A DNA stretch of 64,000 nt. Source: Fimbriimonadaceae bacterium. Its GTDB lineage: Bacteria; Armatimonadota; UBA10988. A program made the position numbers and the translations under genes. The notes beneath the pieces are model-generated. The model made no database searches and was not told the DNA's origin. It saw only the letters and a list, made by a program, of their open reading frames with translations. Shown in pieces: positions 44,335-56,530 of this stretch; position 1 is the first letter of the stretch, and each line of letters begins with the position of its first letter. The stretch lies in assembly GCA_020850355.1 (NCBI GenBank), contig JADZEX010000020.1, forward strand, positions 62,001 through 126,000, read 5' to 3'.

Positions 44335-45339
44335 ATGGAACGCAACATCACCTTGGCCCACGGCAGCGGCGGCCGGCTGACCGCGGAGCTGGTTCAGGAG
44401 GTCTTCGTGAAGGCCTTCGACGATGACGCCGGGCGCCGGCTCGAAGACAGCGCCGTGCTGCCACCCGGCAGCGGCGAGGTCGCCCTGACCACCGACGGCT
44501 TTGTCGTCAAACCCCGCGTCTTTCCCGGCGGCGACATCGGCAAGCTGGCGGTCTGTGGGACCGTCAACGACCTCGCCGTGGCCGGCGCCGAGCCCGTCGC
44601 GTTGACCGTCGCCTGCATCATCGAAGAGGGTCTGGCGGTCAGCGAGTTGCGGGCGGTGGCCCGCAGTATGGCCGCCACCGCGCGCCAGGCTGGGGTGCGG
44701 ATCGTTGCCGGCGACACGAAAGTCGTCGAACGCGGCAGTGGTGACGGACTCTACCTCGCCACCAGCGGCTACGGCCTGCTGCCGCCCGGACGCCGGCTCG
44801 GGGCCGCGCGGCTGACGGTGGGCGACGTGATTCTCGTCAGCGGCGACATCGGCCGGCACGAGGCGGCGATTCTACTGGCCCGTGGGGAGCTGCACTTCGA
44901 GGCCGCCCTGGAATCGGACTGCGGCCTGCTGCTGGAAACCTGCCGCGGCGTGCTGGCGGCCGGTGGCGACGGGGTGCGGGCGCTGCGCGACTGCACCCGC
45001 GGTGGCCTGGCGACGGTGCTCTGCGAGTACGCCGCGGCCAGCGGACTGGGGCTGGCGCTGCAAGAGGCGGCCATCCCGGTGCGGCCGGCGGTGGCGGCGG
45101 TCTGCGAACTGCTGGGGCTGGACCCGCTCTACCTGGCCTGCGAGGGCCGACTGGTGGCCGTGGTGTCGGAAGACGTGGCCGAGCGGGTGGAAGCTTGCTT
45201 GCAGACGTCAGAGTCCAGCGCGGCTCGGATTGGCCAGGTGGTTGCCGAGCCCGCCGGGCGGGTGGTGTTGGAAACCGGGATCGGCGGCCGGCGCGTGCTG
45301 GACCTGCTGGCCGGTGGGCAACTGCCGCGGATCTGCTGA
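44335..45339 (+). CDS. hypE: Hydrogenase maturation factor HypE
   Basis: 334 residues, AIR-synthase fold. HypE dehydrates a thiocarbamoyl group on its own C-terminal cysteine to give the cyanide ligands of the [NiFe] active site. Visible: LAHGSGG and LEDSAVLPPG near the N-terminus, GTVNDLAVAGAEP, VAGDTKVVERG, VILVSGDIGRHEAAILLARG, VRALRDCTRGGLATVLCEYA, and the essential terminal tetrapeptide PRIC ending in Cys334. The ATG follows TGGAGGACGA. First gene of the hydrogenase locus, 11 bases before the DRTGG gene. HypF and HypCD, needed for the same pathway, are not in the window. Confidence 0.97.
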   Translation: MERNITLAHGSGGRLTAELVQEVFVKAFDDDAGRRLEDSAVLPPGSGEVALTTDGFVVKPRVFPGGDIGKLAVCGTVNDLAVAGAEPVALTVACIIEEGLAVSELRAVARSMAATARQAGVRIVAGDTKVVERGSGDGLYLATSGYGLLPPGRRLGAARLTVGDVILVSGDIGRHEAAILLARGELHFEAALESDCGLLLETCRGVLAAGGDGVRALRDCTRGGLATVLCEYAAASGLGLALQEAAIPVRPAVAAVCELLGLDPLYLACEGRLVAVVSEDVAERVEACLQTSESSAARIGQVVAEPAGRVVLETGIGGRRVLDLLAGGQLPRIC

Positions 45340-45350
45340 GGACGTCTACG

Positions 45351-45710
45351 ATGCTATGGTCCGAAGTGCTGGAGTCGCTCGGCGCGCGTCAGCTCGTGGA
45401 GGGCGCCGATTTCGAGGTCCAGAGCGTCGCTGCGGCTGACCTGCTGAGCGACATTCTGGCGACCGACAAAGAGCAGTTCATGATTCTGACCGGCCAGATC
45501 TCGCCGCAGGCGATCCGCACGGCGTTGACGGTCGGGGCCCTCGGCGTGGTCGTCGTCCGCGGCAAGCAGCCACCCCCCGAGACTGTCGGCCTGGCCCAGA
45601 ACTACGGCGTGCCGTTGGCGGTCACCGACCTCAAGATGTTCGAAGCCTGCGTGGCGGTGGGAGCCCGGCTGTGGAGTTCAGCTTCGTCGAAGAACTCGTC
45701 CACCGTCTGA
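45351..45710 (+). CDS. DRTGG-domain protein 1 of the hydrogenase operon
   Basis: 119 residues from ATG 45351 (GAGGACG upstream). A DRTGG-like domain: DLLSDILATDKEQFMILTG, AIRTALTVGALGVVVVRGK and NYGVPLAVTDLKMFEACVAVG. Stand-alone DRTGG proteins are a standard component of [FeFe]-hydrogenase operons in Clostridia and Thermotogae, where they are presumed to sense a nucleotide or metabolite. It overlaps the CBS-ATPase gene by 40 bases and is a diverged paralogue of the DRTGG protein encoded at 46582. Confidence 0.85.
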   Translation: MLWSEVLESLGARQLVEGADFEVQSVAAADLLSDILATDKEQFMILTGQISPQAIRTALTVGALGVVVVRGKQPPPETVGLAQNYGVPLAVTDLKMFEACVAVGARLWSSASSKNSSTV

Positions 45711-46573
45711 AGGTCTTCCAGGCGATGGACAAGGAGGTCGTCACGGTCCAGCCGGACCAGACGATGCGCCACGCCCAACAAGTGATGCGCGAGGCGCGGG
45801 TCTCGGGCATGCCGGTCGTCGAACACGACATGATGGTCGGCATCGTGACCATCGAGGACATCATCAAAGCCCTCGATCACGGCCACACCGACGAGCCGGT
45901 GCGCGCCTGGATGACTCGTGACGTCGTCACCGTCGAGGCCCGCTGGCCGCTCAGCCGGGCGATGAGCCTGTTCGAGCGGACCCGCTTCGGGCGGCTGCCG
46001 GTGATGGACGAAGATTGCCTGCTGGCCGGCGTGATCACCCCCGAGTCGATCCTCCGCGCGCTGCTGGTCGAGCTGAACCGCCTGCTGGCCCAGGACGAGG
46101 AGCGCGAAGCCGCGCGGGCCAGCGTCGATGGTGGGGCGCTGCGGCTGGAGTTCGACGTCGCCGGCGGCGACTTCGACCGCGCCGGACTGGCCAGCGTGCG
46201 GCTGAAGCGCGAGCTGGCCAGTCGGGGGATCGACCCAACCATCGCCCGGCGGGTGGCCATCGCCACCCACGAGGCCGAGACCAACCTGATCATCCATAGC
46301 TCCCACGGCGGCCGCATCGTGGCCGACCTGGAAGCCGACAGCATCCGCCTGGTGGTGACCGACGACGGTCCCGGGATCGAGGACATCGACCGTGCCTTGA
46401 CGCCCGGCTTCTCGACCGCCAGCGACTTCGTGCGGAACCTCGGCTTCGGCGCCGGGATGGGCCTGCCCAACATCCGGCGCTGTGCCGACCATTTCGAGAT
46501 CAAGAGCAGACCGGGCTACGGCACCCGCCTGAACGTCCGCTTCGAGCTGCGCGGCCCAAGCCCAGAGGAGTAG
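45671..46573 (+). CDS. CBS-CBS-HATPase (RsbW-like) sensor-switch protein
   Basis: 300 residues from GTG 45671 (GGGAG upstream). Residues about 20-135: two CBS motifs (VQPDQTMRHAQQVMREARVSG and the WPLSRAMSLFERTRFGRLP half), a Bateman module that usually binds adenine nucleotides. Residues about 160-290: a GHKL ATPase of the anti-sigma/serine kinase kind with N-box HEAETNLIIHS, G1 DDGPGI and G2 GFGAGMGLPNI. It has no transmembrane or phosphoacceptor His region. Known from the same position in [FeFe]-hydrogenase operons. It probably senses energy charge and acts by phosphorylation or partner switching. The target is unknown. Confidence 0.9.
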   Translation: MEFSFVEELVHRLKVFQAMDKEVVTVQPDQTMRHAQQVMREARVSGMPVVEHDMMVGIVTIEDIIKALDHGHTDEPVRAWMTRDVVTVEARWPLSRAMSLFERTRFGRLPVMDEDCLLAGVITPESILRALLVELNRLLAQDEEREAARASVDGGALRLEFDVAGGDFDRAGLASVRLKRELASRGIDPTIARRVAIATHEAETNLIIHSSHGGRIVADLEADSIRLVVTDDGPGIEDIDRALTPGFSTASDFVRNLGFGAGMGLPNIRRCADHFEIKSRPGYGTRLNVRFELRGPSPEE

Positions 46574-46581
46574 ACCCCGCC

Positions 46582-46911
46582 ATGACCGTGACAGAAGTCG
46601 CGGCCCAACTCGGGCTGACAGCGGTAACTACGTTGCATGAGAAGAAACTGGAAGGCGCGATTGCGAGCGACCTGCTGAGTGACGTGCTGGCGAACGCAGC
46701 TCCGGGGTTCTTGTGGGTGACCATCCAGACCCACCGCAACGTCGCCGCGGTGGCCTCGGCGCAGAGCATCGCGGCGGTCGTGGTGACCGGCGGGCGGCAG
46801 CCGGCGGAGGACACCGTGGCGCTGGCTGACAGCGAGCAGGTGGTGGTCTTCACCACGGCGGCCAGCACCTACGAGGTCTGCGGACGGCTGTACGAGCTGG
46901 GAGTGCGCTGA
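46582..46911 (+). CDS. DRTGG-domain protein 2 of the hydrogenase operon
   Basis: 109 residues. It shares DLLSDVLAN (DLLSDILAT in paralogue 1), a hydrophobic AAVVVTGGRQPAEDTVALA strand-loop and the closing STYEVCGRLYELG with the DRTGG protein at 45351. It is closer to the serine-kinase HPr/DRTGG type found before PHP genes in bifurcating-hydrogenase operons. The stop TGA is followed without a gap by the GTG of the PHP gene. No catalytic residues are evident, so a ligand-sensing role is inferred. Confidence 0.85.
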   Translation: MTVTEVAAQLGLTAVTTLHEKKLEGAIASDLLSDVLANAAPGFLWVTIQTHRNVAAVASAQSIAAVVVTGGRQPAEDTVALADSEQVVVFTTAASTYEVCGRLYELGVR

Positions 46912-47691
46912 GTGCGCTGGTACGCCGCCGACCTGCACGTGCATAGCGTGCTCTCGCCGTGCGGTGACCTGCGCATGGCGCCGGGCGAGCTGGTGGCGCG
47001 GGCCCGGGCGGCTGGGGTGAGTCTGCTGGGCCTCAGCGACCACAACAGCGCGCGCAATGCGCCGGCCCTGGCAACCTGCGCCGCGGCGGCGGGGTTGGCG
47101 ACGCTCTACGGGCTGGAAGTGCGGTCGGCCGAAGAGGTTGACCTGCTGACGATCTTTGACAGTGTCGACGCGGCGCGGGCGTTCGGGGAGTGGGTCTGGG
47201 ACCGCCTCCCCGCAGTGCCCTGCGACGCGCGGGTGTTTGGCGACCAGGTGGTGGTGGATGCCGCCGAGAACGTCGTCGAGCTGGTCGACCGGCTGCTGAT
47301 CGGTGGTCTCACCGCCGACCTGCAGGAGGTCGCCGAGACCGCTCGCGCGGCGGGCGGGCTGGTGATCCCGGCGCATGTCGACCGCCGCGTCGACAGCGTG
47401 ATCAGCCAGCTCGGCTTCCTGCCGCCAGAGCTGCCGGTGGATGCGGTCGAGCTGTCGCGGTACGGCGACGAGACGAGCCTGGTCCACGAACACCCGTGGC
47501 TGGCAACGGTGCCGGTGGTGCGCTTCAGTGACGCGCACCTGCCGGAAGACATTGGCTATCAGCAGACCCGCTTTCTGGTGGCGGAGCCGACAGTGGCGGA
47601 GCTGCGGATGGCTTTGGAGGGACGGGACGGGAGACGGGCCGAGCCGCTGCGGCAAGCCCTGCGAAGGAGCGCGATCGATGGTACAAAGTGA
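46912..47691 (+). CDS. PHP-domain phosphoesterase
   Basis: 259 residues from GTG 46912, immediately after the preceding stop. PHP metal-binding motifs are intact: ADLHVHSVLSPCGDL near residue 7, LGLSDHNSARN, GLEVRSAEEVDLL, IPAHVDRR and RFSDAHLPEDIG. These bind two or three metal ions and hydrolyse phosphate esters. PHP proteins of this subgroup accompany hydrogenase operons with DRTGG partners. The substrate may be a signalling nucleotide, but this is inference. It overlaps the NuoE gene by 14 bases. Confidence 0.9.
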   Translation: MRWYAADLHVHSVLSPCGDLRMAPGELVARARAAGVSLLGLSDHNSARNAPALATCAAAAGLATLYGLEVRSAEEVDLLTIFDSVDAARAFGEWVWDRLPAVPCDARVFGDQVVVDAAENVVELVDRLLIGGLTADLQEVAETARAAGGLVIPAHVDRRVDSVISQLGFLPPELPVDAVELSRYGDETSLVHEHPWLATVPVVRFSDAHLPEDIGYQQTRFLVAEPTVAELRMALEGRDGRRAEPLRQALRRSAIDGTK

Positions 47692-48193
47692 CCTGGCGCG
47701 CGAACTGGACATCGACCGCTTCGGGGTCGAGGCAGTCCTGTTCAAGGCGCTAGACGACTTCATGGCCGAGCAGCAGTACTCGCCGGACAGCCTGATCGAG
47801 GTGCTGCACCGCGGGCAGGAGATGTTCGGTTATCTGCGCGAGGACGTCCTGAAGTACGTCGCCCGCAAGCTGAGCGTGCCGCTGGCCCGCGTCTATGGCG
47901 TGGCCACGTTCTACCACCTGTTCCACCTGAAGCCCCACGGCAAATACGAGATCCTGGTCTGCATGGGCACCGCCTGCTACGTGCGCGGGGCCGAGCGGAT
48001 CATCTCGGCGCTCGAAAGCCAGCTCGGGGTGAAGATGGGCGAGACCACCAACGACGGGCTGTTCACCCTGATCTGCGCCCGCTGCATCGGCGCCTGCGGG
48101 ATCGCTCCGGCGGTCAAGGTCGGCACCGATGTGCATGGCAAGGTCGAGGCCAAGAAGGTCCGCCGGATGCTGCGCAAGTACGAGGGCAAGTAA
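47678..48193 (+). CDS. nuoE: NuoE/HndA-like [2Fe-2S] subunit
   Basis: 171 residues from ATG 47678 (GAAGGAG upstream). Thioredoxin-like [2Fe-2S] protein. The four cluster ligands are present with correct spacing: Cys95 and Cys100 (CMGTAC), Cys136 and Cys140 (CIGAC). The N-terminal half is the usual helical domain (SLIEVLHRGQEMFGYL, VYGVATFYHLFHLKPHGKY). It is equivalent to HoxE/HndA/HydC and relays electrons to or from the flavin subunit. It sits in the operon between the PHP and small ATPase genes, as in [FeFe] hydrogenase operons. Confidence 0.95.
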   Translation: MVQSDLARELDIDRFGVEAVLFKALDDFMAEQQYSPDSLIEVLHRGQEMFGYLREDVLKYVARKLSVPLARVYGVATFYHLFHLKPHGKYEILVCMGTACYVRGAERIISALESQLGVKMGETTNDGLFTLICARCIGACGIAPAVKVGTDVHGKVEAKKVRRMLRKYEGK

Positions 48194-48202
48194 CGCCCGC
48201 CA

Positions 48203-48766
48203 ATGATGGACGACCTGATGCTGCATGTCCTGGATGTCGCCATGAACGCCGTCGCCGCAGGCGCCCGGACGGTTCGGATCGGGGTCTCCGAAGACCTTGC
48301 CGCCGACCGCCTGACGCTCTACTGCGCCGACAACGGCTGCGGCATGACTGACGCGTTGCAGCAGCGGGTGTTGACCGCTTTCGCGACCACCAAGAGCAAG
48401 GCCCAAGGCTGGGTTGGTTTCGGCCTGGCCCTGCTCCGGGGGACCTGCGACCTGGTCGGCGGATCGTTCCATCTGCGCAGCCGCCCCGGCGTCGGGACCT
48501 TGGTCGTGGCCTGCCTGCCGCACAGCCATCTGGACCGCCCACCCCTCGGAAATGTGGCGGCTTCCTTGCAATCGTTGTTTGTTGGTTGCGAGGAGACGGA
48601 TGTCTGCTTCACGCATCGGGCCGCCGGTGGCGGCTATCGGGTCGACACCCGGCCGGTGCGGCGGGAGCTGGGCGCGGCTTACGGTTCGCCGTTGGTGAAG
48701 CGCTGGTTGGTGGAGCAGCTTGAGGCGGGCGAAGCAGCGCTCGCGAGTGGGAGAGTTGAGCGATGA
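48203..48766 (+). CDS. Stand-alone GHKL ATPase of the hydrogenase operon
   Basis: 187 residues; ATG 48203 or 48206. A histidine-kinase-type ATPase domain without a dimerisation or sensor part: N-box LDVAMNAVAAGA, G1 DNGCGM, G2-like GWVGFGLALLRG and a VGTLVVACLP strand. A tail of about 70 residues has CEETDVCFTHR. The same small ATP-binding protein lies between HndA- and HndB-like genes in many bifurcating-hydrogenase operons. It may be a regulatory kinase without its own sensor. It overlaps the next gene by four bases (ATGA). Confidence 0.88.
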   Translation: MMDDLMLHVLDVAMNAVAAGARTVRIGVSEDLAADRLTLYCADNGCGMTDALQQRVLTAFATTKSKAQGWVGFGLALLRGTCDLVGGSFHLRSRPGVGTLVVACLPHSHLDRPPLGNVAASLQSLFVGCEETDVCFTHRAAGGGYRVDTRPVRRELGAAYGSPLVKRWLVEQLEAGEAALASGRVER

Positions 48767-49140
48767 ACCTGGAAGAGCTCCGACGCTTGCGTGAGAAGGC
48801 GCAACGGGACATGGCGCTCCGCACCGAGCACCAGCGCTTCCGCATCAAGGTCTCGATGGGCACCAGCGGCCTGGCCAAGGGTGCTCGCGAGGTGATGGAT
48901 GCGATGGTCAACGAGATCGAGGCCCGCCAGCTCAACGACATCGAAGTCGTCGTGACGGGGTCCAGCGGCCTGGAGGAGCTGGAGCCGTTCGTGGCGGTCG
49001 AGGAGCAGGGTCAGACGCCGGTGTTGTACGGCCGGGTGGACACCCCGACGGCCAAGAAGATCATCGCCGAGCATGTCGTGGGTGGGCAGAAGGTGACCAC
49101 TCACATCGTGCAGCGGCAGCGCGCTGAGGAGGTCCAGTGA
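48763..49140 (+). CDS. HndB-like thioredoxin-fold protein without cluster cysteines
   Basis: 125 residues. Sequence pattern and position match HndB-like (2Fe-2S) ferredoxin-domain proteins: an N-terminal helix (LEELRRLREKAQRDM), then VSMGTSGLAKGAREVMDAM, IEVVVTGSSGLEELEPFVAV and TPVLYGRVDTPTAKKIIAEHVV. At the positions that hold cluster cysteines in family members there are Ser31, Ser35, Ser67 and Glu71, and the whole protein has no cysteine at all. It therefore cannot carry the expected [2Fe-2S] cluster and is probably a structural subunit. Its stop overlaps the NuoF start (TGATG). Confidence 0.88.
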   Translation: MNLEELRRLREKAQRDMALRTEHQRFRIKVSMGTSGLAKGAREVMDAMVNEIEARQLNDIEVVVTGSSGLEELEPFVAVEEQGQTPVLYGRVDTPTAKKIIAEHVVGGQKVTTHIVQRQRAEEVQ

Positions 49141-50939
49141 TGGCGGAGTTCCAGCGACTCCACTGCTTCCTGTGTACCGGCTCCGGCTGTGTCGCGGCGG
49201 GCGCATTCGACGTTCGCGACAAGCTCCGGGAAGAGCTCGAGAAGCACGGGTTGAGTGAAGAGATCGACATCATCGACACCGGGTGCGCCGGCCTCTGCGA
49301 GCGCGGCCCCCGGATGAACGTCTGGCCGGACGAGATCTACTACGCCCAGTTGCAGACCAAGGACATCCCGAAGCTGGTCGAGGAGCATTTCCTCAAGGGT
49401 CGCCCCTACGAGCCGTGCCGCATGACCGACACCGTCTCGGGCGACATCATCGCCAGCGAGATGGACTTCCAGTTCCTCAGCAAGCAGCGCCGCATCGTGC
49501 TCGAGAACTGCGGGGTCGTCAACCCGGAGCACATCGAGGAGTACATCGCCCGCGATGGCTATCTGGCCCTCGGCAAGGTGCTCTGCGAGCTGCAGCCGGC
49601 CGACGTGCTGGCCGAGATCAAGAAGTCCGGCCTGCGCGGCCGCGGCGGCGCGGGGTTCCCGACCGGCCTGAAGTGGCAACTGCTGCACGACGCACCGGGC
49701 GACACCAAGTACATCGTCTGCAACGCCGACGAGGGTGACCCGGGCGCCTTCATGGACCGCTCGGTGCTGGAGGGCGACCCCCACCGGGTGATCGAGGCGA
49801 TGGCCATCAAGGGCTACGCCACCGGCGCCAGCAAGGGCTTCATCTACTGCCGCGCCGAGTACGCGCTGGCCATCCTGCGGCTGAACATCGCGCTGAAGCA
49901 GGCCCGCAGCTACGGGCTGCTGGGCAAGAACCTGTTCGAGCGCGGCTTCGACTTCGACATCGAGATCCGCGTCGGCGCCGGGGCCTTCGTCTGCGGTGAA
50001 GAGACCGCCCTGATGCAGTCCATCGAGGGCCACCGCGGCCACCCGATGCCGCGGCCGCCGTTCCCGACCCAGAAGGGCCTGTGGGGCAAGCCGACCAGCA
50101 TCAACAATGTCGAGACATACGCCAACATCCCTTGGATTATCCGACAGGGCGGCGAGGCGTATGCCGCCATCGGCACCGAGAAGAGCAAGGGCACGAAGGT
50201 CTTCGCCCTGGCCGGCAACGTCCGCAACACCGGCCTGATCGAAGTCCCGATGGGGATCACGCTGCGCGAGATCGTCTTCGGGATCGGCGGCGGCATCGTC
50301 GAGGACCGGGCCTTCAAGGCGGCTCAGGCGGGTGGCCCCTCGGGCGGCTGCATCCCGGCCGAGCACCTCGACACGCCGCTCGACTACGAGAGCCTGACCG
50401 GCCTCGGCGCCATCCTCGGCTCCGGCGGTCTGATCATCATGGACGAGACGAGCTGCATGGTCGATGTGGCGCGCTTCTTCATGGAGTTCTGCGTCGACGA
50501 GAGCTGCGGCAAGTGCGTCCCGTGCCGCGCCGGGACCCGCCAGATCTGGCAGTTGCTGACCACCATCTGCAACGGCGAGGCCGTCATGGAGGACCTCGAC
50601 CGGCTCGAGAAGCTCTGCCTGATGATGCGTGACATGAGCCTCTGCGGCCTCGGCATGACCGCGGCCAACCCGGTGCTCTCGACGTTGCGCCACTTCCGCC
50701 ACGAGTACGAGGCGCACATCAAGGACAAGCGCTGTCCGGCGGGCGTCTGTCGCAAGCTGGTGACCTTCAGCATCGCGAAAGAGAAGTGCACCGGCTGCGG
50801 CGTGTGCTCGCGCAACTGCCCGGTCGACACCATCTTCAAGATGGACGGCGAGCGCAAGTACCACATCGTGCAGGACGCCTGCATCAAGTGCGGCTCGTGC
50901 TTCGACGTCTGCAACTTCGATGCAGTGAATAAGGAGTAG
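49140..50939 (+). CDS. nuoF: NuoF/HndC/HydB-like NADH- and FMN-binding subunit
   Basis: 599 residues from ATG 49140 (AGGAGG seven bases upstream). Order: an N-terminal thioredoxin-like [2Fe-2S] domain (CTGSGC at 12-17, then DTGCAGLC), then the flavin site GRGGAGFPTGLKW. The NADH site is VGAGAFVCGEETALMQSIEG, a SLBB domain is present, and the N3-type [4Fe-4S] motif is ESCGKCVPCRAGT. Two C-terminal [4Fe-4S] motifs follow (CTGCGVCSRNCP, CIKCGSCFDVC). This long architecture is that of the subunit proposed to bifurcate electrons between NAD(P)H and ferredoxin in [FeFe] hydrogenases (HydB, HndC), not the shorter HoxF of cyanobacteria. Confidence 0.95.
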   Translation: MAEFQRLHCFLCTGSGCVAAGAFDVRDKLREELEKHGLSEEIDIIDTGCAGLCERGPRMNVWPDEIYYAQLQTKDIPKLVEEHFLKGRPYEPCRMTDTVSGDIIASEMDFQFLSKQRRIVLENCGVVNPEHIEEYIARDGYLALGKVLCELQPADVLAEIKKSGLRGRGGAGFPTGLKWQLLHDAPGDTKYIVCNADEGDPGAFMDRSVLEGDPHRVIEAMAIKGYATGASKGFIYCRAEYALAILRLNIALKQARSYGLLGKNLFERGFDFDIEIRVGAGAFVCGEETALMQSIEGHRGHPMPRPPFPTQKGLWGKPTSINNVETYANIPWIIRQGGEAYAAIGTEKSKGTKVFALAGNVRNTGLIEVPMGITLREIVFGIGGGIVEDRAFKAAQAGGPSGGCIPAEHLDTPLDYESLTGLGAILGSGGLIIMDETSCMVDVARFFMEFCVDESCGKCVPCRAGTRQIWQLLTTICNGEAVMEDLDRLEKLCLMMRDMSLCGLGMTAANPVLSTLRHFRHEYEAHIKDKRCPAGVCRKLVTFSIAKEKCTGCGVCSRNCPVDTIFKMDGERKYHIVQDACIKCGSCFDVCNFDAVNKE

Positions 50940-50945
50940 CTCCCG

Positions 50946-52925
50946 ATGGCAGAGTTGATTACCCTCACCATCGATGGCCAGGAGTGCCGCGGCACCAAAG
51001 GGATGACCATCCTGCAGGTGGCCAAGGAGAACGGGCTCGACATCCCGACGCTCTGCAATCACCCCTGGCTGACGACCCACGGCGGCTGCCGGATGTGCGT
51101 CGTCGAGGTGGAAGGCCAGCGCCGGCTGGTCACCGCCTGCGCCGCGCCCGCCGAAGACGGGCAGATCGTCGTGGCGCACAACGATCGGCTCGAGACGCTG
51201 CGGCAGATGACCCTGGAGCTGCTCTTCGCCGAGCGCAACCACATCTGCCCGTTCTGCGCGATGACCGGGGTCTGCGAACTGCAGGACCGGGCTTACGAGC
51301 ACCACATCACGCACACGCGCTACGACTATATCTTCCCGGTGCTGACCCCCGACACCACCAACCCGTACTTCGTGCAGGACCACAACCGCTGCATCCTGTG
51401 CGGGCGCTGTGTCCGGAGCTGCTACGAGATCGCCGGCGTCGGCACGCTCGGGTTTGGGCATCGCGGCTCGCAAGAAGTCGTCATCGCCGACCTCGGCGTG
51501 CCGCTCGGGGAGAGCTCTTGCATCAAGTGCGGCACCTGCGTCGACGTCTGCCCGACCGGGGCGCTGTTCGACAAGCGGGCGCCCTACTTCTCGCGGGCCC
51601 GCGGACTCGAACGGAAGCCCAGCATCTGCCCCGACGACGACCTGGGCTGCGCCATGAACGTGGTGCTGAAGTCCGGCCTGGTCGCGCGCATCGAAGGCTG
51701 GACCGAGGCCCCGGTCAACGGCCCGTTGCTGAGCTACCGCTCGCGCTACGAGATCCTCAACGAGCCTCACCCCCGGGTCCTCAAGCCGCGGGTGCGCAAG
51801 GATGGCGAGCTGGTCGAGGTGGACTGGGCCGAGGCGCTCGACGCGACTGCGGAGTTGCTCGCCAAGACGCAGTCTGGCGCCGACGGCCACGTCGTCGGCC
51901 TCTGCTCGACGCGTTTGCCCTACGAGACTCTGGCGAGCTACCACCGGCTGCTCGCCGAGCAGTGCGGCTGTGTCGACGTGGACACCTTCCGCGGCGCTCA
52001 ACGGGCCACCCGCCGACAGGCTGACGACCTCTACGGGACGCACAAGGAGTGCGACTTCGAGGCCATTCAGCAGGCCGACATGGTGCTCCTGGTGGGCTTC
52101 GACCCCTGCACCACCCACCCGGTGCTGGGCGCCTGGCTGGCCAAGAAGGTCCACCACGACGGGGTGCCGATCGTCAGCATCAGCCCGCGCACCACGAAGA
52201 CCGCCGAGCTCAGCATCCTCAGCCTCAAGCCGCGCCGCGGCAGCGAGCTGGCGGTGCTCTACGGTCTGCTCGGGCAGCTCATCGAGCAGCGCAACCTGGG
52301 CCACCTGGTCGACCGCCTGACCGCCGAGAAGTGGCGCTCCCACCCGCCGGGCCGCGTCTCCTACGAGGCCGGGGTGGAGGAGCAGGCCGTGGTGCGCGCC
52401 GCGGCGCTCTACGCGGCCGCCAAGAACCCGGTGATCCTGTACGGGCCCGACCTCACCGAAACCGGCAACCCAACGCTGATCGGCCGGCTCTGGGAAATGG
52501 CCCAGTTGCTCGGCCACGTGGGCGCCAGCAAAGAGGTCATGGTGCGCGGCTTCACGACCGGCGCCAACTCCGCGGCGGCCGAGCAGATTGGCTTCCGCGG
52601 CGCCGATATGGAAGGCGCGGCGGTGGTCTACCTGCTAAGCGGCGACGACCCCGTCGACCTGACGCCGCAACTGCGCCAGGACCTGCGCGACGCCGGCGCG
52701 GTGATCCTGCAGTCGGCCCACGACGGGCCGCTGGTGCAATACGCCGATGTGGTGCTGCCGTCGCTGAAGTGGAGCGAACGCGGCGGCACCTGGATCAACG
52801 TGATGGGCGTCGGCCAGACCTTCGAGGCCTGCACCAAGGCCCCAGCCGGCATCAAGCCGGACGAGTGGGTCCTCACCGAAATCGGCGAGCGCTTGAGCGC
52901 CGTCAAGGAGGCTGCTCATGAGTGA
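50946..52925 (+). CDS. nuoG: NuoG/HoxU-like iron-sulfur subunit with molybdopterin-type C-terminal domain
   Basis: 659 residues (AAGGAG upstream). Residues 1-80: [2Fe-2S] ferredoxin domain (CNHPW, GGCRMC). Residues 80-125: the His-Cys [4Fe-4S] motif (HICPFCAMTGVC). Residues 130-220: two [4Fe-4S] motifs (CILCGRCVRSC, CIKCGTCVDVCP). From about 225 a molybdopterin-oxidoreductase-like domain runs to the end. Its normal C-x2-C-x3-C entry motif is reduced to CPDDDLGC, so it should not bind that cluster, and it is shorter than a catalytic formate dehydrogenase. HoxU proper ends near residue 240, so about 420 residues are extra. The gene overlaps hoxY by 8 bases. Confidence 0.92.
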   Translation: MAELITLTIDGQECRGTKGMTILQVAKENGLDIPTLCNHPWLTTHGGCRMCVVEVEGQRRLVTACAAPAEDGQIVVAHNDRLETLRQMTLELLFAERNHICPFCAMTGVCELQDRAYEHHITHTRYDYIFPVLTPDTTNPYFVQDHNRCILCGRCVRSCYEIAGVGTLGFGHRGSQEVVIADLGVPLGESSCIKCGTCVDVCPTGALFDKRAPYFSRARGLERKPSICPDDDLGCAMNVVLKSGLVARIEGWTEAPVNGPLLSYRSRYEILNEPHPRVLKPRVRKDGELVEVDWAEALDATAELLAKTQSGADGHVVGLCSTRLPYETLASYHRLLAEQCGCVDVDTFRGAQRATRRQADDLYGTHKECDFEAIQQADMVLLVGFDPCTTHPVLGAWLAKKVHHDGVPIVSISPRTTKTAELSILSLKPRRGSELAVLYGLLGQLIEQRNLGHLVDRLTAEKWRSHPPGRVSYEAGVEEQAVVRAAALYAAAKNPVILYGPDLTETGNPTLIGRLWEMAQLLGHVGASKEVMVRGFTTGANSAAAEQIGFRGADMEGAAVVYLLSGDDPVDLTPQLRQDLRDAGAVILQSAHDGPLVQYADVVLPSLKWSERGGTWINVMGVGQTFEACTKAPAGIKPDEWVLTEIGERLSAVKEAAHE

Positions 52926-53472
52926 GGCGCGCAAACCGGTGATCGCGTCGGTCTGGCTGGCCGGCTGCTCCGGGTGTCACATGTCGTTGCTCGACATCGA
53001 CGAGCGGCTGTTGACGGTCCTTGAGAAGGGCAGCATCGCCGCCACGCCGATCACCGACTTCAAACTCGGGTCTTTCCCGCAGTGCGACGTCGGCCTGGTC
53101 GAGGGCTCCGTCACCAACACCGACAACATCAAGTTCCTCGAGGAACTGCGCGCCAAGTCGACCTACCTGGTCAGCTTCGGCGACTGCGCCGGCTGGGGTT
53201 GCGTGCCCTTCATGCGCAACTTCTTCCCGCTGCAGGAGGTCCTCGAACACGGCTATATCTGGTCGTCGAGCACCGTCGACGGGCACATTCCCGATGATGA
53301 GGAGCTGCCGACGTTCCTGGACGTCGTCGAGCCGATCCGGAAGTTCGTCAAGGTCGACTTCCACATCCCCGGCTGCCCGCCCTCGGCCGACACCATCTTC
53401 TACGTTGTCAACGAGCTGCTGGAGGGCCGCATGCCGGCCGGCATCCCGCAGCCGTTGCTGCACTTCGACTGA
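52918..53472 (+). CDS. hoxY: [NiFe] hydrogenase small subunit, HoxY-like
   Basis: 184 residues, without Tat signal, so a cytoplasmic enzyme. The four ligands of the proximal [4Fe-4S] cluster are present: Cys17 and Cys20 (AGCSGCHMSLLD), Cys90 (GDCAGWG) and Cys153 (PGCPPSAD). It lacks the C-terminal medial and distal cluster domain of group 1 enzymes, as expected for group 3 (HoxY/MvhG-like). It passes electrons between the NiFe site of HoxH and the NuoG-like subunit. The start overlaps the preceding gene by 8 bases. Confidence 0.95.
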   Translation: MSEARKPVIASVWLAGCSGCHMSLLDIDERLLTVLEKGSIAATPITDFKLGSFPQCDVGLVEGSVTNTDNIKFLEELRAKSTYLVSFGDCAGWGCVPFMRNFFPLQEVLEHGYIWSSSTVDGHIPDDEELPTFLDVVEPIRKFVKVDFHIPGCPPSADTIFYVVNELLEGRMPAGIPQPLLHFD

Positions 53473-53487
53473 TTGGAGGGCGAGCTC

Positions 53488-54921
53488 ATGGCTACGAAAT
53501 ACATCGTTGAGCCGGTGACCCGCATCGAAGGCCACGCCAAGATCACGTGCGTGGTCGACGACGCCGGCAAGGTCGACCACGCGCGGTTCCATGTGGTCGA
53601 GTTCCGCGGCTTCGAGAAGTTCTGCGAGGGCCGGCACTTCAGCGAGATGCCCACCCTGACCGAGCGGATCTGCGGGATCTGCCCGGTCAGCCACCACCTC
53701 GCCAGCGCCAAGGCCATCGACCGCCTGGCCGGCGTCCAGCCGACCCGCACCGCCGCGCTGCTGCGCGAGCTGATGCACATGGGGCAGGTGGCGCAGTCGC
53801 ACGCGCTGAGCTTCTTCCACCTCTCGTCGCCCGACCTGCTGCTGGGGCCCGACAGCGACCCGGCGCTGCGCAACGTGGTGGGCATCGTGCAGGCCTTCCC
53901 CGAGGTCGGTCTGCGCGCCGTCAAGATGCGCAAGTGGGGTCAGGAGGTGATCGCCGCCATCGGCGGACGCAAGATCCACCCGAACTGCGCCGTCCCGGGC
54001 GGCATGGCCGCGGGGATCTCGAAGGATGTCGGGCGCGACTTGCTGGCCGAGGCCGAGACGCATCTCGCCACCGCGATGATCGGGCTCGACCTGCTGCTCG
54101 GTTGGGTCAAGAAGAACCCGGAGGTGGTCGCCCGCTTCGCCGTCTTCTCGAGCTACTACGGCGGGTTGGTCAACCCCGCGGGCGGGCTGGAGCTGTATGA
54201 CGGCAACTTCCGGATCAGCGACCCGCAGGGCCAGCCGGTGGTCGACCAGTTCGACACCCAGAAGTACCTCGACATCATCGGCGAGCGGGTCGAGAGCTGG
54301 ACGACGCTGAAGTTCCCGTACTACAAGCCGGCCGGGTACCCCGACGGGGCCTACCGCGTCGGACCGCTCGGGCGCCTCAACAACATCTCGCACATCCCGA
54401 CGCCGCGGGCGCAGGAGCAGTTCGAGAAGTACAAGGCCGCCGGCAACGAACACGGCGTCGTGGAAGGCACTCTGTTCTACCACTACGCCCGCCTGATCGA
54501 GGCCATCTACGCCATCGAGCGGGCGCAGCAGATCCTGGCCGACGACGAGGTCTACGGCCCCGATCTGATGGCCCCGACCACCGGTCAGCTCAACCCGCGC
54601 GGCGTCGGCGTGATCGAAGCCCCGCGCGGCACGCTCTGGCATGACTACACCATCGACGAGAACGGCGCGTTGACCAACGTCAACCTGATCGTCAGCACCG
54701 GGCAGAACAACCCGGCGATGTGCAAGTCGGTCGAGCTGGTGGCTCAGGAGTTCGTCGACGGCTCCAACGTCACCGAGGGCATGCTGAACCGCCTCGAGAT
54801 GGCCATCCGCGCCCACGACCCGTGCCTCAGTTGTTCGACCCACGCCATCGGCCAGATGCCCTTGCTGGTCGAACTGGTGGATCGCCACGGCACGCTGTTG
54901 CAGCGGATCGAACGCCACTAG
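53488..54921 (+). CDS. hoxH: [NiFe] hydrogenase large subunit, HoxH-like
   Basis: 477 residues from ATG 53488 (GGAGGG seven bases upstream); a start 15 bases earlier lacks a site. It holds the NiFe(CN)2CO centre. L1 motif RICGICPVSHH with Cys62 and Cys65, L2 motif DPCLSCSTH with Cys446 and Cys449, plus EPVTRIEGHAKI at the N-terminus. The L1 form RICGICPVSHH is typical of group 3 enzymes. Processing after His452 would remove a 25-residue tail beginning AIGQMPLL. The protease for this is encoded at 55037. Catalyses reversible H2 oxidation. Confidence 0.96.
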   Translation: MATKYIVEPVTRIEGHAKITCVVDDAGKVDHARFHVVEFRGFEKFCEGRHFSEMPTLTERICGICPVSHHLASAKAIDRLAGVQPTRTAALLRELMHMGQVAQSHALSFFHLSSPDLLLGPDSDPALRNVVGIVQAFPEVGLRAVKMRKWGQEVIAAIGGRKIHPNCAVPGGMAAGISKDVGRDLLAEAETHLATAMIGLDLLLGWVKKNPEVVARFAVFSSYYGGLVNPAGGLELYDGNFRISDPQGQPVVDQFDTQKYLDIIGERVESWTTLKFPYYKPAGYPDGAYRVGPLGRLNNISHIPTPRAQEQFEKYKAAGNEHGVVEGTLFYHYARLIEAIYAIERAQQILADDEVYGPDLMAPTTGQLNPRGVGVIEAPRGTLWHDYTIDENGALTNVNLIVSTGQNNPAMCKSVELVAQEFVDGSNVTEGMLNRLEMAIRAHDPCLSCSTHAIGQMPLLVELVDRHGTLLQRIERH

Positions 54922-54941
54922 GCCCCGCCCCGTGGTGCCCC

Positions 54942-54970
54942 TTGGCGGGCGCTGCGGGATCGGGTAGACT
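54942..54970 (+). promoter_or_regulatory. Candidate promoter for the maturation genes
   Basis: TTGGCG (54942-54947), 17-base spacer, TAGACT (54965-54970), 67 bases before the endopeptidase ATG. It overlaps the region of a hairpin at 54975, so only one of the two may function as described. Confidence 0.4.
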
Positions 54971-54974
54971 GTCA

Positions 54975-55010
54975 CCAGCCAGCGGGCAACCGCTGGCTGG
55001 TCTGTTGTCT
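54975..55010 (+). terminator. Hairpin with GCAA tetraloop after hoxH
   Basis: Perfect 11-bp stem (54975-54985, 54990-55000) closed by a GNRA-type GCAA loop, followed by TCTGTTGTCT. It is either the terminator (possibly partial) of the structural operon or a stabilising stem. It would reduce expression of the downstream maturation genes relative to the structural ones. Confidence 0.6.
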
Positions 55011-55036
55011 CGACCCGCCTGGCGAACGCTCAACCC

Positions 55037-55534
55037 ATGCGCTACCTGATCATCGGCTACGGCAATCCGAGCCGCGAGGATGATGGCGTCGGCCATTACG
55101 TCGTGAATCGGCTCAACGAACGCTTCGGGCTGCCTGGCGTGGACCTGCTCGGCGAACCGCGCGGCGACGGCGGCGACACCGCTCAGGTCGGGCCGCACGC
55201 CGTCCGCACGCTCTGGTTGCAGCAGCTCGATGTCGCGCTGGCCGAGGAGATCGCCGAGTATGACCGCGTCTGGTTCATCGACGCCCACGTCGAGGGGCCG
55301 CCGGAGATCGAAGTCGAAGTCGGCGACGGCCACCACATCGGCGTGACCTCGCACGTCGCCACGCCGGAGACCCTGGTGGCCCTGGCCGGGGCGCTCTACG
55401 GGCGGCGTCCACCAGCGGTGCGGTGCAGCTTGCTGGGGCACCGCTTCGACTTCGCGGCGCAGCTTAGCCCGCCGGTGCAGGCCGCCGCCGAGGCCCTCGC
55501 GGCGCGTCTCGCCGCGGAGCTCGCCGGTGCATGA
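55037..55534 (+). CDS. [NiFe] hydrogenase maturation endopeptidase (HyaD/HoxW family)
   Basis: 165 residues. N-terminal GYGNPSREDDGVGHYV is the M52 family signature, with the nickel-sensing acidic residue in REDDG. The second acidic ligand is in FIDAHVEG and the His in the TSHVATPETL segment. It trims the C-terminal tail of HoxH after nickel insertion. Length is normal for the family. It starts 115 bases after hoxH behind a hairpin, and overlaps hypA by 8 bases. Confidence 0.94.
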   Translation: MRYLIIGYGNPSREDDGVGHYVVNRLNERFGLPGVDLLGEPRGDGGDTAQVGPHAVRTLWLQQLDVALAEEIAEYDRVWFIDAHVEGPPEIEVEVGDGHHIGVTSHVATPETLVALAGALYGRRPPAVRCSLLGHRFDFAAQLSPPVQAAAEALAARLAAELAGA

Positions 55535-55904
55535 GGTCAGCCTGGCGGAGCAGTTGATCGGTCCGGTGCTGGCGGCGGCCGCGCAGTACGGCGGCGAGCG
55601 CGTCACGGCGGTCACGGTCCGGGCAGGAGCCTTGCAGCAAATCGTACCGGGGAGCCTGGCGCTCGCCTTCGAGGCGGTCGCGCTGGGCACCTTGGCGGAG
55701 GGCGCCACGCTGACGGTGGAGACGGTGCCGGTGACGGCCCGTTGTCGCCGCTGCGACGCGGAGTTCGAGGTCGAGGCGTTCTGTTTCCTGTGTCCCACCT
55801 GCGGCGTTGCCGACGTCGCCACGCTCACCGGGAACGAACTGCTTCTGGCCAGCCTGGAGCTGGAACCATGCGAGTCGACGTCGTCCACAACGTCACCAAG
55901 CTGA
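55527..55904 (+). CDS. hypA: Hydrogenase nickel incorporation protein HypA
   Basis: 125 residues from GTG 55527; this start gives MHEVSLAEQL, whose His2 and Glu3 are the invariant nickel-binding residues, so it is firmly chosen. The zinc site has two CxxC pairs with correct spacing, Cys73/Cys76 (CRRC) and Cys89/Cys92 (CPTC), plus an extra Cys86. With HypB it delivers Ni to HoxH. It overlaps both neighbours: 8 bases with the endopeptidase and 37 bases with hypB. Confidence 0.96.
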   Translation: MHEVSLAEQLIGPVLAAAAQYGGERVTAVTVRAGALQQIVPGSLALAFEAVALGTLAEGATLTVETVPVTARCRRCDAEFEVEAFCFLCPTCGVADVATLTGNELLLASLELEPCESTSSTTSPS

Positions 55905-56530
55905 ATGACGCGATGGCGCAGCAGATCCGTGAGACACTGCGCGAGAAGCGGATCTTCTGCCTCAACCTGATCTCCTCGCCGGGCTCCGGCAAGACCACCA
56001 TCCTCGAACGGACTCTCGACCACCTGCGCGACGAGTTGCGCTGCGCGGTGATCGTCGGCGACCTGGCAACCTCGATCGACGCGTACCGTATGGCGGAGTA
56101 TGCGCCGACGATTCAGATCAACACCGACGGCGGATGCCACCTCGACGCCGCGATGGTCAGCACGGCGCTGGAGTCGCTGAAGCTCGACGAGCTCGACGTG
56201 CTGTTCATCGAGAACGTCGGCAATCTGGTCTGCCCGGTCGGTTTCGACCTCGGACAGGACGTCAAGGTCGGTATCCTGTCAGTCACCGAGGGCGAGGACA
56301 AGGTCGCCAAGTACCCGCGGATCTGGCGTGAGGCGAGCATCGTGCTGCTCAACAAGATCGACCTGGCGCCGTTCGTGTTCTTCAACCGCACCAAGTTCTA
56401 CGCCGACCTGGAACAGGTCAACGCGCTGCTGCCGGTGATCGAGATGTCGGCCACCAAGGGCGATGGGGTCTCCCGCTTCTGCGACTGGATCCTCCGCGAA
56501 CGCGAGGACCGGCTGGCGATTCGGCGGTAG
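55868..56530 (+). CDS. hypB: Hydrogenase nickel incorporation GTPase HypB
   Basis: 220 residues from ATG 55868, inside the end of hypA. SIMIBI GTPase with P-loop SSPGSGKTT at 36-44, switch-region GDLATSIDAYR, the metal-binding GGCHLDA, VLFIENVGNLVCP and NKID for guanine specificity. It lacks the N-terminal CxxC-type high-affinity site and the His-rich stretch found in some relatives, so it probably only delivers nickel and does not store it. Last gene of the hydrogenase locus. A 121-base gap precedes the next gene. Confidence 0.96.
   Translation: MRVDVVHNVTKLNDAMAQQIRETLREKRIFCLNLISSPGSGKTTILERTLDHLRDELRCAVIVGDLATSIDAYRMAEYAPTIQINTDGGCHLDAAMVSTALESLKLDELDVLFIENVGNLVCPVGFDLGQDVKVGILSVTEGEDKVAKYPRIWREASIVLLNKIDLAPFVFFNRTKFYADLEQVNALLPVIEMSATKGDGVSRFCDWILREREDRLAIRR

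Follow-up and report, generated by a model that had tools for sequence, protein, structure and literature searches.

The stretch of DNA analysed here (the window) comprises 64,000 nucleotides from the 6.67-Mb genome of a Fimbriimonadaceae bacterium of the Armatimonadota (part of contig JADZEX010000020.1, assembly GCA_020850355.1; contig C21 in our numbering), and it carries at positions 44335-56530 a cluster of 15 hydrogenase-related genes, all on the + strand. A first-pass annotation made from the letters alone had named these genes, and all of them were recovered at its coordinates by open reading frames and Pfam/NCBIfam profiles. We propose, with a probability of about 0.85, that the cluster codes for a soluble and reversible [NiFe] hydrogenase of the electron-bifurcating NiFe-Bfu type, accompanied by genes for nickel insertion and processing and by a cytosolic sensor module, as judged from sequence and from analogy with a purified enzyme.

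The cluster opens with hypE for NiFe-site assembly (44335-45339; TIGR02124, 394 bits, cut-off 251.6), followed by four genes that we call the sensor genes. These code for a first DRTGG-fold protein (45351-45710), which has no Pfam match alone and was recognized by hhalign, AlphaFold and Foldseek; a CBS-CBS-HATPase protein (45671-46573; PF00571 twice and PF02518), whose start is uncertain, as a start at the in-frame Met codon at 45725 would abolish the overlap with the preceding gene; a second DRTGG protein (46582-46911; PF07085, 27.9 bits, cut-off 25.2); and a PHP-domain phosphoesterase-like protein (46912-47691; PF02811, 32.6 bits). Downstream lie hydC for a NuoE/HoxE-like subunit with the [2Fe-2S] cluster C1 (47678-48193; PF01257, 168 bits; 7t2r_C, 132 bits), a stand-alone HATPase_c gene (48203-48766; PF02518, 55.6 bits), probably the HisK of the Acetomicrobium mobile operon, and a gene for a cysteine-free HydD/HndB-like protein (48763-49140), whose match to NF041612 (23.6 bits, E = 5.9e-5) is a weak ferredoxin match below the cut-off. 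HydB/BfuB, the flavin mononucleotide (FMN)/NAD subunit of 600 residues (49137-50939; 7q4v_B, 835.2 bits; 7t2r_B, 834.5 bits), is laid out as N-terminal [2Fe-2S], B1, B2 and C-terminal 2x[4Fe-4S]. Then come HydA/BfuA, a NuoG-like electron wire of 659 residues (50946-52925; top match 7t2r_A, 284.6 bits), the small subunit HydS with one [4Fe-4S] cluster (52918-53472; top match 7t2r_E, 158.5 bits) and the NiFe catalytic subunit HydL (53488-54921; 7t2r_D, 553 bits, 53% identity). A maturation endopeptidase (55037-55534; TIGR00072, 57.4 bits, cut-off 47.45), hypA (55527-55904; PF01155, 100.9 bits) and hypB (55868-56530; TIGR00073, 243.4 bits) complete the cluster. The Pfam matches of the CBS-CBS-HATPase, second DRTGG, PHP, NuoE and HATPase_c proteins all exceed their cut-offs.

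Neighbouring genes overlap or lie at most 15 bp apart, as the first-pass annotation had noted, with the single exception of hydL and the protease gene, which are separated by 115 bp. A hairpin search placed a terminator-like hairpin of 12 pairs in this gap (54974-55001, + strand), which possibly lowers expression of the maturation genes; the region holds two such hairpins against 5.0 expected in shuffles, so that the evidence for this one is weak. The 15-gene order is complete in genome G001 (locus L107), which indicates that the cluster is not a product of chance, and it is also found in G002, split over two contigs (L148 and L121). In G003 (L108) the run from hypE through hydL is present, and the protease gene, hypA and hypB were not found within 2.7 kb downstream.

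Subunits, cofactor ligands and enzyme type

The closest characterized counterpart is NiFe-HydABCSL of A. mobile, an electron-bifurcating hydrogenase solved by cryo-electron microscopy in 2022 (PDB 7t2r/7t30), in which H2 oxidation is tightly coupled to the reduction of NAD+ and ferredoxin and whose operon codes for five subunits together with HydD, HydP and HisK (PMC8880783). In a PDB search, HydL, HydS and HydA each had the corresponding chain of this enzyme as closest relative of known structure, while the score of HydB was tied between the A. mobile chain and 7q4v_B, the HydB of an iron hydrogenase. Mapped onto the A. mobile enzyme, HydB keeps all cluster ligands (B1-B5): C13, C18, C50 and C54 in the N-terminal part, C457, C460, C463 and C503 for B1, C440, C478, C533 and C538 with H527 for the penta-coordinate B2, and the eight cysteines of the C-terminal domain. 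The B2 list was taken from passages of PMC9304861, and the remaining cysteines were assigned to clusters by motif and position. Present as well are the C1 cysteines of HydC (C95, C100, C136 and C140), the [4Fe-4S] cysteines of HydS (C17, C20, C90 and C153) and the NiFe-site CxxC pairs of HydL (C62/C65 and C446/C449), which has 25 extra residues past DPCLSCSTH.

HydA keeps the ligands of A1-A4, has no H-cluster and aligns with FeFe HydA over its N-terminal 211 residues only. The ligands of A5 are lost (A. mobile C229/C232/C236/C264 correspond to C228/D231/C235/S263 in the window), and this loss is common to the three same-family genomes (L107, L108 and L121). In A. mobile, according to the available passages, A5 is a terminus and not a branch point (PMC8880783) and electrons come in via A3 (PMC8880783, PMC9304861); bifurcation should therefore not need A5.

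Within the Bfu family, NiFe-Bfu has been described as Type 3 and named for Synergistetes and Halorhabdus (PMC9304861). The window has the BfuBC core, with B1-B5 in BfuB and C1 in BfuC, a BfuA with A1-A4, A3 among them, and no H-cluster, and separate HydS and HydL subunits with their motifs; it differs in the missing A5 and in its host, which belongs to Armatimonadota. Likewise, it resembles the A. mobile enzyme in the five subunits, the A1-A4 and B1-B5 ligands, the HisK-like and HydD-like companions and the HydL sequence, but its HydB is of another lineage, its HydD has no cysteines, and it adds the four sensor genes, which are not described in the passages of PMC8880783 available to us. The [FeFe] HydABC enzymes (7q4v, and the clusters L144, L145, L147 and L149 of the same phylum) have the HydB/HydC core and the sensor genes in common with the window, whereas their HydA bears H-cluster motifs and their ATPase frames of 153-216 residues correspond to the ATPase half of the window protein only.

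The five structural genes match those of the known HydABCSL and, as far as sequence can tell, the enzyme is one that works like it; subunits and ligands are read from the window itself, while bifurcation and direction are carried over from the A. mobile enzyme. H2 would be split at the NiFe site of HydL, and electrons would travel via the one HydS cluster and those of HydA to the FMN of HydB. From there one branch would reduce NAD+, and the other would run through C1 of HydC, B2 and the two C-terminal [4Fe-4S] clusters of HydB to ferredoxin.

The first-pass annotation had described an NAD(P)-linked or bifurcating [NiFe] hydrogenase on an [FeFe]-type chassis, made by exchange of the H-cluster subunit for a NiFe pair and without known precedent for the full set. 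NAD linkage, bifurcation (by the ligands) and a HydABC-type chassis hold, and an enzyme with such an exchange does exist. However, hydrogenases with a NiFe pair in place of the H-cluster on a HydABC chassis have already been published: one was purified and its structure solved in 2022 (PMC8880783), and the passages of PMC9304861 available to us treat the type as a defined hydrogenase group. For the enzyme, the claim of an unprecedented hybrid hence falls, and a categorically new enzyme was rejected on the PDB matches and these two papers. What seems new is the split of HydB lineages, the grouping with Hox hydrogenases that keep a relict B2, and the loss of A5 in the window's family.

Descent of the subunits and the relation to Hox hydrogenases

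Trees were built with IQ-TREE, with support given as ultrafast bootstrap/Shimodaira-Hasegawa-like approximate likelihood ratio test, and constrained topologies were compared by the approximately unbiased (AU) test; Hox3d is our label for HoxE-containing group-3d rows. In the HydL tree (62 rows, Mvh outgroup; 16 of 76 candidate rows omitted, two added), one clade (98/99) united 24 Hox-type rows with the window lineage, family f3 and four bridge loci, the last from Planctomycetota, Verrucomicrobiia and UBP4 records. L030 and L025 grouped with the Hox-type rows (100/94), which also formed a clade alone (99/96); two of these rows, L053 and L065, have a HydB of a non-Hox type. A like grouping of the window with Hox3d was seen for HydB (92/97; 58 rows, 27 of 79 candidates omitted and six added) and in the unrooted trees of HydC (91/95) and HydS (90/92), and the five-gene tree, rooted on A. 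hydrogeniformans, gave the same group with L053 inside (100/100). The window was placed outside the supported Hox3d clade by HydL (99/96), HydB (98/92) and the five genes (99/97). L053 was left out of the HydC, HydS and HydA-N trees, the HydS+HydL tests and the later five-gene tests, because its HydL is nested in Hox3d and its HydB is not.

For HydB, AU tests omitting four of the 58 rows rejected both the union of the window with Acetomicrobium (p = 0.00026) and a single clade of all NiFe-type HydBs, Hox included (p = 7.5e-5). The enzyme appears to share its descent with relatives of HoxE-containing group-3d hydrogenases rather than with the A. mobile enzyme. The first-pass annotation had proposed NuoF and HoxH trees and named a placement of NuoE and NuoF inside classical HoxEF as evidence against its reading; the result lies halfway, as HydB and HydL stand beside Hox3d, HydB joins NiFe/Hox relatives, and HydB and HydC fall beside HoxF and HoxE, not inside them, and retain the bifurcation ligands.

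Since the window HydB lies off the A. mobile lineage and NiFe-type HydBs do not form one clade, catalytic parts and chassis were recombined more than once. A direct sign of such recombination is L053 (Bipolaricaulota), a hybrid with the sensor module, a HydB with all ligands, a 232-residue HydA and a Hox3d-nested HydL, followed by a second HydC-HydB pair. HydBs of like cluster content also stand beside NiFe subunits in Chloroflexi (L013), Planctomycetota (L031) and Verrucomicrobia (L030). Bifurcating-type [NiFe] hydrogenases therefore extend past the Synergistetes and Halorhabdus named in the available passages of PMC9304861, and were assembled more than once.

In the HydB, HydL, HydC and HydS trees, the nearest relatives of the window lineage are group-3d HoxEFUYH, f3 and the bridge loci. 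All 21 Hox3d rows of the five-gene tree have a HoxU of 237-262 residues and a HoxF without the C-terminal 2x[4Fe-4S] domain, whereas the window has the long forms. The B2 ligands (C438, C531, C536 and H525) are nevertheless kept in seven of these rows (L045, L049, L050, L058, L079, L114 and L118) and lost in 14. Both the C-terminal domain and B2 are present in the window lineage, f3, the four bridge loci, L032 and L013; in the remaining eight bifurcating-type rows B2 is kept, and the domain gives way to a long C-terminal extension that has few of the domain's cysteines. Mapped on the five-gene tree from which L053 was omitted, B2 takes four changes, as does the presence of 2x[4Fe-4S]; absence of any C-terminal extension takes two changes by motif coding, or by reasoning one, if L011, a 1064-residue frame not caught by the motif, is counted as extended. 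The pattern may reflect a single loss of the extension at the base of Hox3d, after which B2 was lost repeatedly.

The position of the window lineage beside Hox3d and the B2 sites kept without a ferredoxin-reducing domain suggest cyanobacterial-type Hox as a decayed bifurcating hydrogenase. At a little short of even odds, Hox3d, cyanobacterial Hox included, may descend from a sensor-equipped bifurcating [NiFe] ancestor through loss of its sensor genes, of the C-terminal portion of HydA and of the ferredoxin-reducing HoxF domain, with B2 disappearing later in several lines; some living Hox enzymes would carry a relict site, and NiFe or FeFe parts would have joined the chassis several times independently. 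The tests of polarity are divided. A placement of all bifurcating NiFe forms on one side was rejected by HydL with the Mvh outgroup, in favour of a nested Hox3d (p = 0.028, groups named post hoc), but not by HydS+HydL (43 rows; p = 0.176). For HydB, a place of Hox3d beside complex I was not rejected (p = 0.522) and had a slightly higher likelihood. A clade of the window, f3 and the bridge loci without Hox was not rejected by HydL (p = 0.101) or the five genes (p = 0.253), nor was, by HydL, a group of the window, Acetomicrobium and other bifurcating forms without f3 and the bridge loci (p = 0.128).

No bifurcating origin of Hox is claimed in the literature searched, which covered titles and the starts of abstracts, with supplements and most subscription journals outside it, nor in the available passages of PMC6085437, PMC6349859, PMC11647496, PMC11406978 and PMC9304861. 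The window lineage is a candidate bridge from bifurcating hydrogenases to cyanobacterial Hox, and the HoxF proteins that keep B2 make it possible to test where Hox came from and how it reacts with ferredoxin.

The C. necator-type HoxH (L230, Cupriavidus necator pHG1; L231, Lichenicola) fell outside the cyanobacterial-type HydL clade (one-clade test, p = 0.048), suggesting that group 3d may be two lineages. Placement of the corresponding HoxF in the HydB tree was unusable, as the Lichenicola HoxF covers 16% of columns and the branches are long.

The sensor genes

The first DRTGG family matches the second at 99.6% in profile-profile comparison (hhalign), and four of its 11 members match PF07085 at E <= 0.01. 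The AlphaFold model of the window protein (predicted local distance difference test score of 90) has the DRTGG structure 2ioj as its best Foldseek match in the PDB (TM 0.79), followed by the part of a Clostridium perfringens pyrophosphatase that spans its CBS and DRTGG domains. The CBS-CBS-HATPase protein matches the SpoIIAB model below the cut-off (51.6 bits against 135). In the PHP protein, H9, H11, D43-H44, H155, D207 and H209 are residues of metal-binding type. The window HydD has no cysteines, and the GTC/GC..C motif that it lacks is also absent from L107, L108, L148, L229, L030, L053, L006 and L029; it is present in L032, L109, L008 and the four FeFe clusters.

The sensor set lies upstream of HydC in all three same-family genomes and is preceded by hypE in the window lineage (L107, L108 and L148). 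Our wider survey covered the best 80 of 591 confirmed HydL loci from a contig scan, among which the nearest named record is L002 (Armatimonadetes bacterium NC_groundwater_318; HydL 76% identical) and 33 loci have HydL less than 9 kb from the locus start. The search for HydL beside DRTGG and PHP genes, suggested by the first-pass annotation, was productive: three or all four of the sensor genes lie upstream in ten of these 80 loci (L006, L008, L012, L016, L020, L022, L023, L029, L032 and L053). Two sensor genes each were found in L030 and L036, and a weak CBS-type match alone in L067, L069 and L070. The set occurs in several Chloroflexi loci, Anaerolineae among them. The notion that it is unique to the window was rejected by L032, L008, L053 and the Anaerolineae loci. 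For instance, L032 is A. hydrogeniformans, a congener of A. mobile, and has all four genes, so that the full set is not without precedent in this part either; its ATPase frame of 156 residues is too short for a CBS pair, whereas those of the window lineage, L008, L012 and L030 (299-406 residues) leave space for one.

Likeness to the genes of [FeFe] clusters was confirmed, as four FeFe clusters of the same phylum among nine regions fetched (L144, L145, L147 and L149; two or all three of the H-cluster motifs) carry the module. An origin of the module specifically in [FeFe] systems, as had been claimed, finds no support in the sensor tree, which was built from PHP, both ATPases (for the CBS protein, the ATPase half only), HydD and the second DRTGG protein (24 rows, unrooted; omitting L110, L112 and L122, whose PHP gene may be common with f3 rows). 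Here the window lineage joined f3 and L030 (99/98) and next L053 and L032 (99/97), and the four FeFe clusters formed a separate group (99/98). This grouping suggests that the module has long been a companion of this NiFe lineage.

The CBS and DRTGG domains of a regulated pyrophosphatase bind adenine nucleotides. According to structure titles, the two domains co-occur in such an enzyme. The DRTGG/CBS-ATPase/DRTGG/PHP/ATPase set may, tentatively, be an energy-charge switch that responds to adenine nucleotides and tunes synthesis or activity of the hydrogenase to the energy state, in which CBS and DRTGG would sense nucleotides, the ATPases would act as kinases or anti-factors of the SpoIIAB kind and PHP would be a phosphoesterase. 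Common to FeFe and NiFe forms, it looks like a regulatory system without a paper in the literature searched (supplements and most subscription journals lay outside the search), and the main texts of PMC6288185, PMC8924675 and PMC9304861 do not mention DRTGG or PHP. Together with the Hox link, the shared sensor set is the part worth following.

Alternative readings and genome context

An ordinary non-bifurcating, NAD-linked group-3d hydrogenase of the HoxEFUYH type with leftover extra domains is very unlikely at this locus. Four subunit trees (HydB, HydC, HydS and HydL) do group the window with Hox3d, and the top NCBIfam model for HydC is HoxE (205.7 bits, under the cut-off of 224), but the window HydB has every B1-B5 ligand and its long HydA has A1-A4, whereas the 21 Hox3d rows have the short HoxU and no C-terminal domain in HoxF, and 14 have no B2. 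We also regard as unlikely a recent modular swap, in which the sensor module came from a resident [FeFe] bifurcating operon and the NiFe unit replaced HydA in place. The module is common to the same-phylum FeFe clusters, and NiFe-type HydBs are not one clade, some lying near FeFe HydBs; yet the window sensor proteins join NiFe clusters and its HydB joins NiFe/Hox relatives, and any swap would be old, being common to f3 and to Phycisphaerae and Verrucomicrobiia relatives. That the sensor genes serve maturation (e.g. ATP-dependent cofactor loading), or an antiphage or RNA-processing role, instead of hydrogenase regulation seems rather unlikely. The PHP protein weakly matches RNase RNM and Ppl and the CBS part an antiphage model, all far below cut-off, and hypE lies upstream of the set in the window lineage, but the set accompanies both NiFe and FeFe bifurcating enzymes, and the maturation systems of these two differ.

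Some observations weigh against a NiFe-Bfu hydrogenase akin to Hox and governed by the sensor module. The top PDB match of HydC is 8a6t_C (156.3 bits), which we take to be the HydC of an FeFe-type bifurcating hydrogenase, ahead of 7t2r_C. Loss of A5 and the cysteine-free HydD mean that the window enzyme is not identical to the type enzyme. In the HydA-N tree the Hox-containing group did not come together as a clade (21% of bootstraps), and HydL did not reject the window with Acetomicrobium (p = 0.247). Moreover, in 34 of the best 80 of 591 loci, many of them Hox3d, the upstream sequence covered is 9 kb or more and has no sensor genes. Finally, the one COX1 match in the window's genome suggests that the host may respire O2, in which case H2 uptake is possible.

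The same genome has one HydL match, HypD on another contig, two POR_N matches and one RnfC_N match, the last two families indicating ferredoxin chemistry for the enzyme to serve. In a profile search Fe_hyd_lg_C was absent from it (0 of 1), and of 14 control genomes only Thermotoga was positive. In the cell the NiFe-Bfu enzyme would most likely run in reverse and dispose of fermentative NADH and reduced ferredoxin as H2; the genome fits a facultative organism with such a fermentation, a direction that we infer. A second bifurcating-type HydB (G000:C81:82478-84220; L225) is followed by a HydA-like gene and a gene like those for dihydroorotate dehydrogenase electron transfer subunits (Nfn-type), and this locus is perhaps an Nfn-Bfu transhydrogenase.

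HydB variants were also observed at other loci. Two HydC-HydB pairs are present in the NiFe clusters L006, L012, L016, L020, L022, L023, L026, L029, L036 and L040, and ligands were read for nine of the ten; the HydBs of L022 are in pieces. In the first HydB, B2 and the C-terminal 2x[4Fe-4S] domain are retained and the N-terminal cysteines are often lost, while the second, which adjoins HydA-HydS-HydL, is without the C-terminal domain or the N-terminal cysteines. A similar doubling is found in the FeFe clusters L147 and L149. HydB frames of up to about 1100 residues, with a C-terminal extension in place of 2x[4Fe-4S], occur in FeFe and NiFe settings alike: L144 (FeFe), L008 (NiFe), L210, which is the second Bfu of A. 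hydrogeniformans, and L009, L028, L038, L112, L113 and L122. By reading and a simple nucleotide-binding motif, the extension looks GltD-like.

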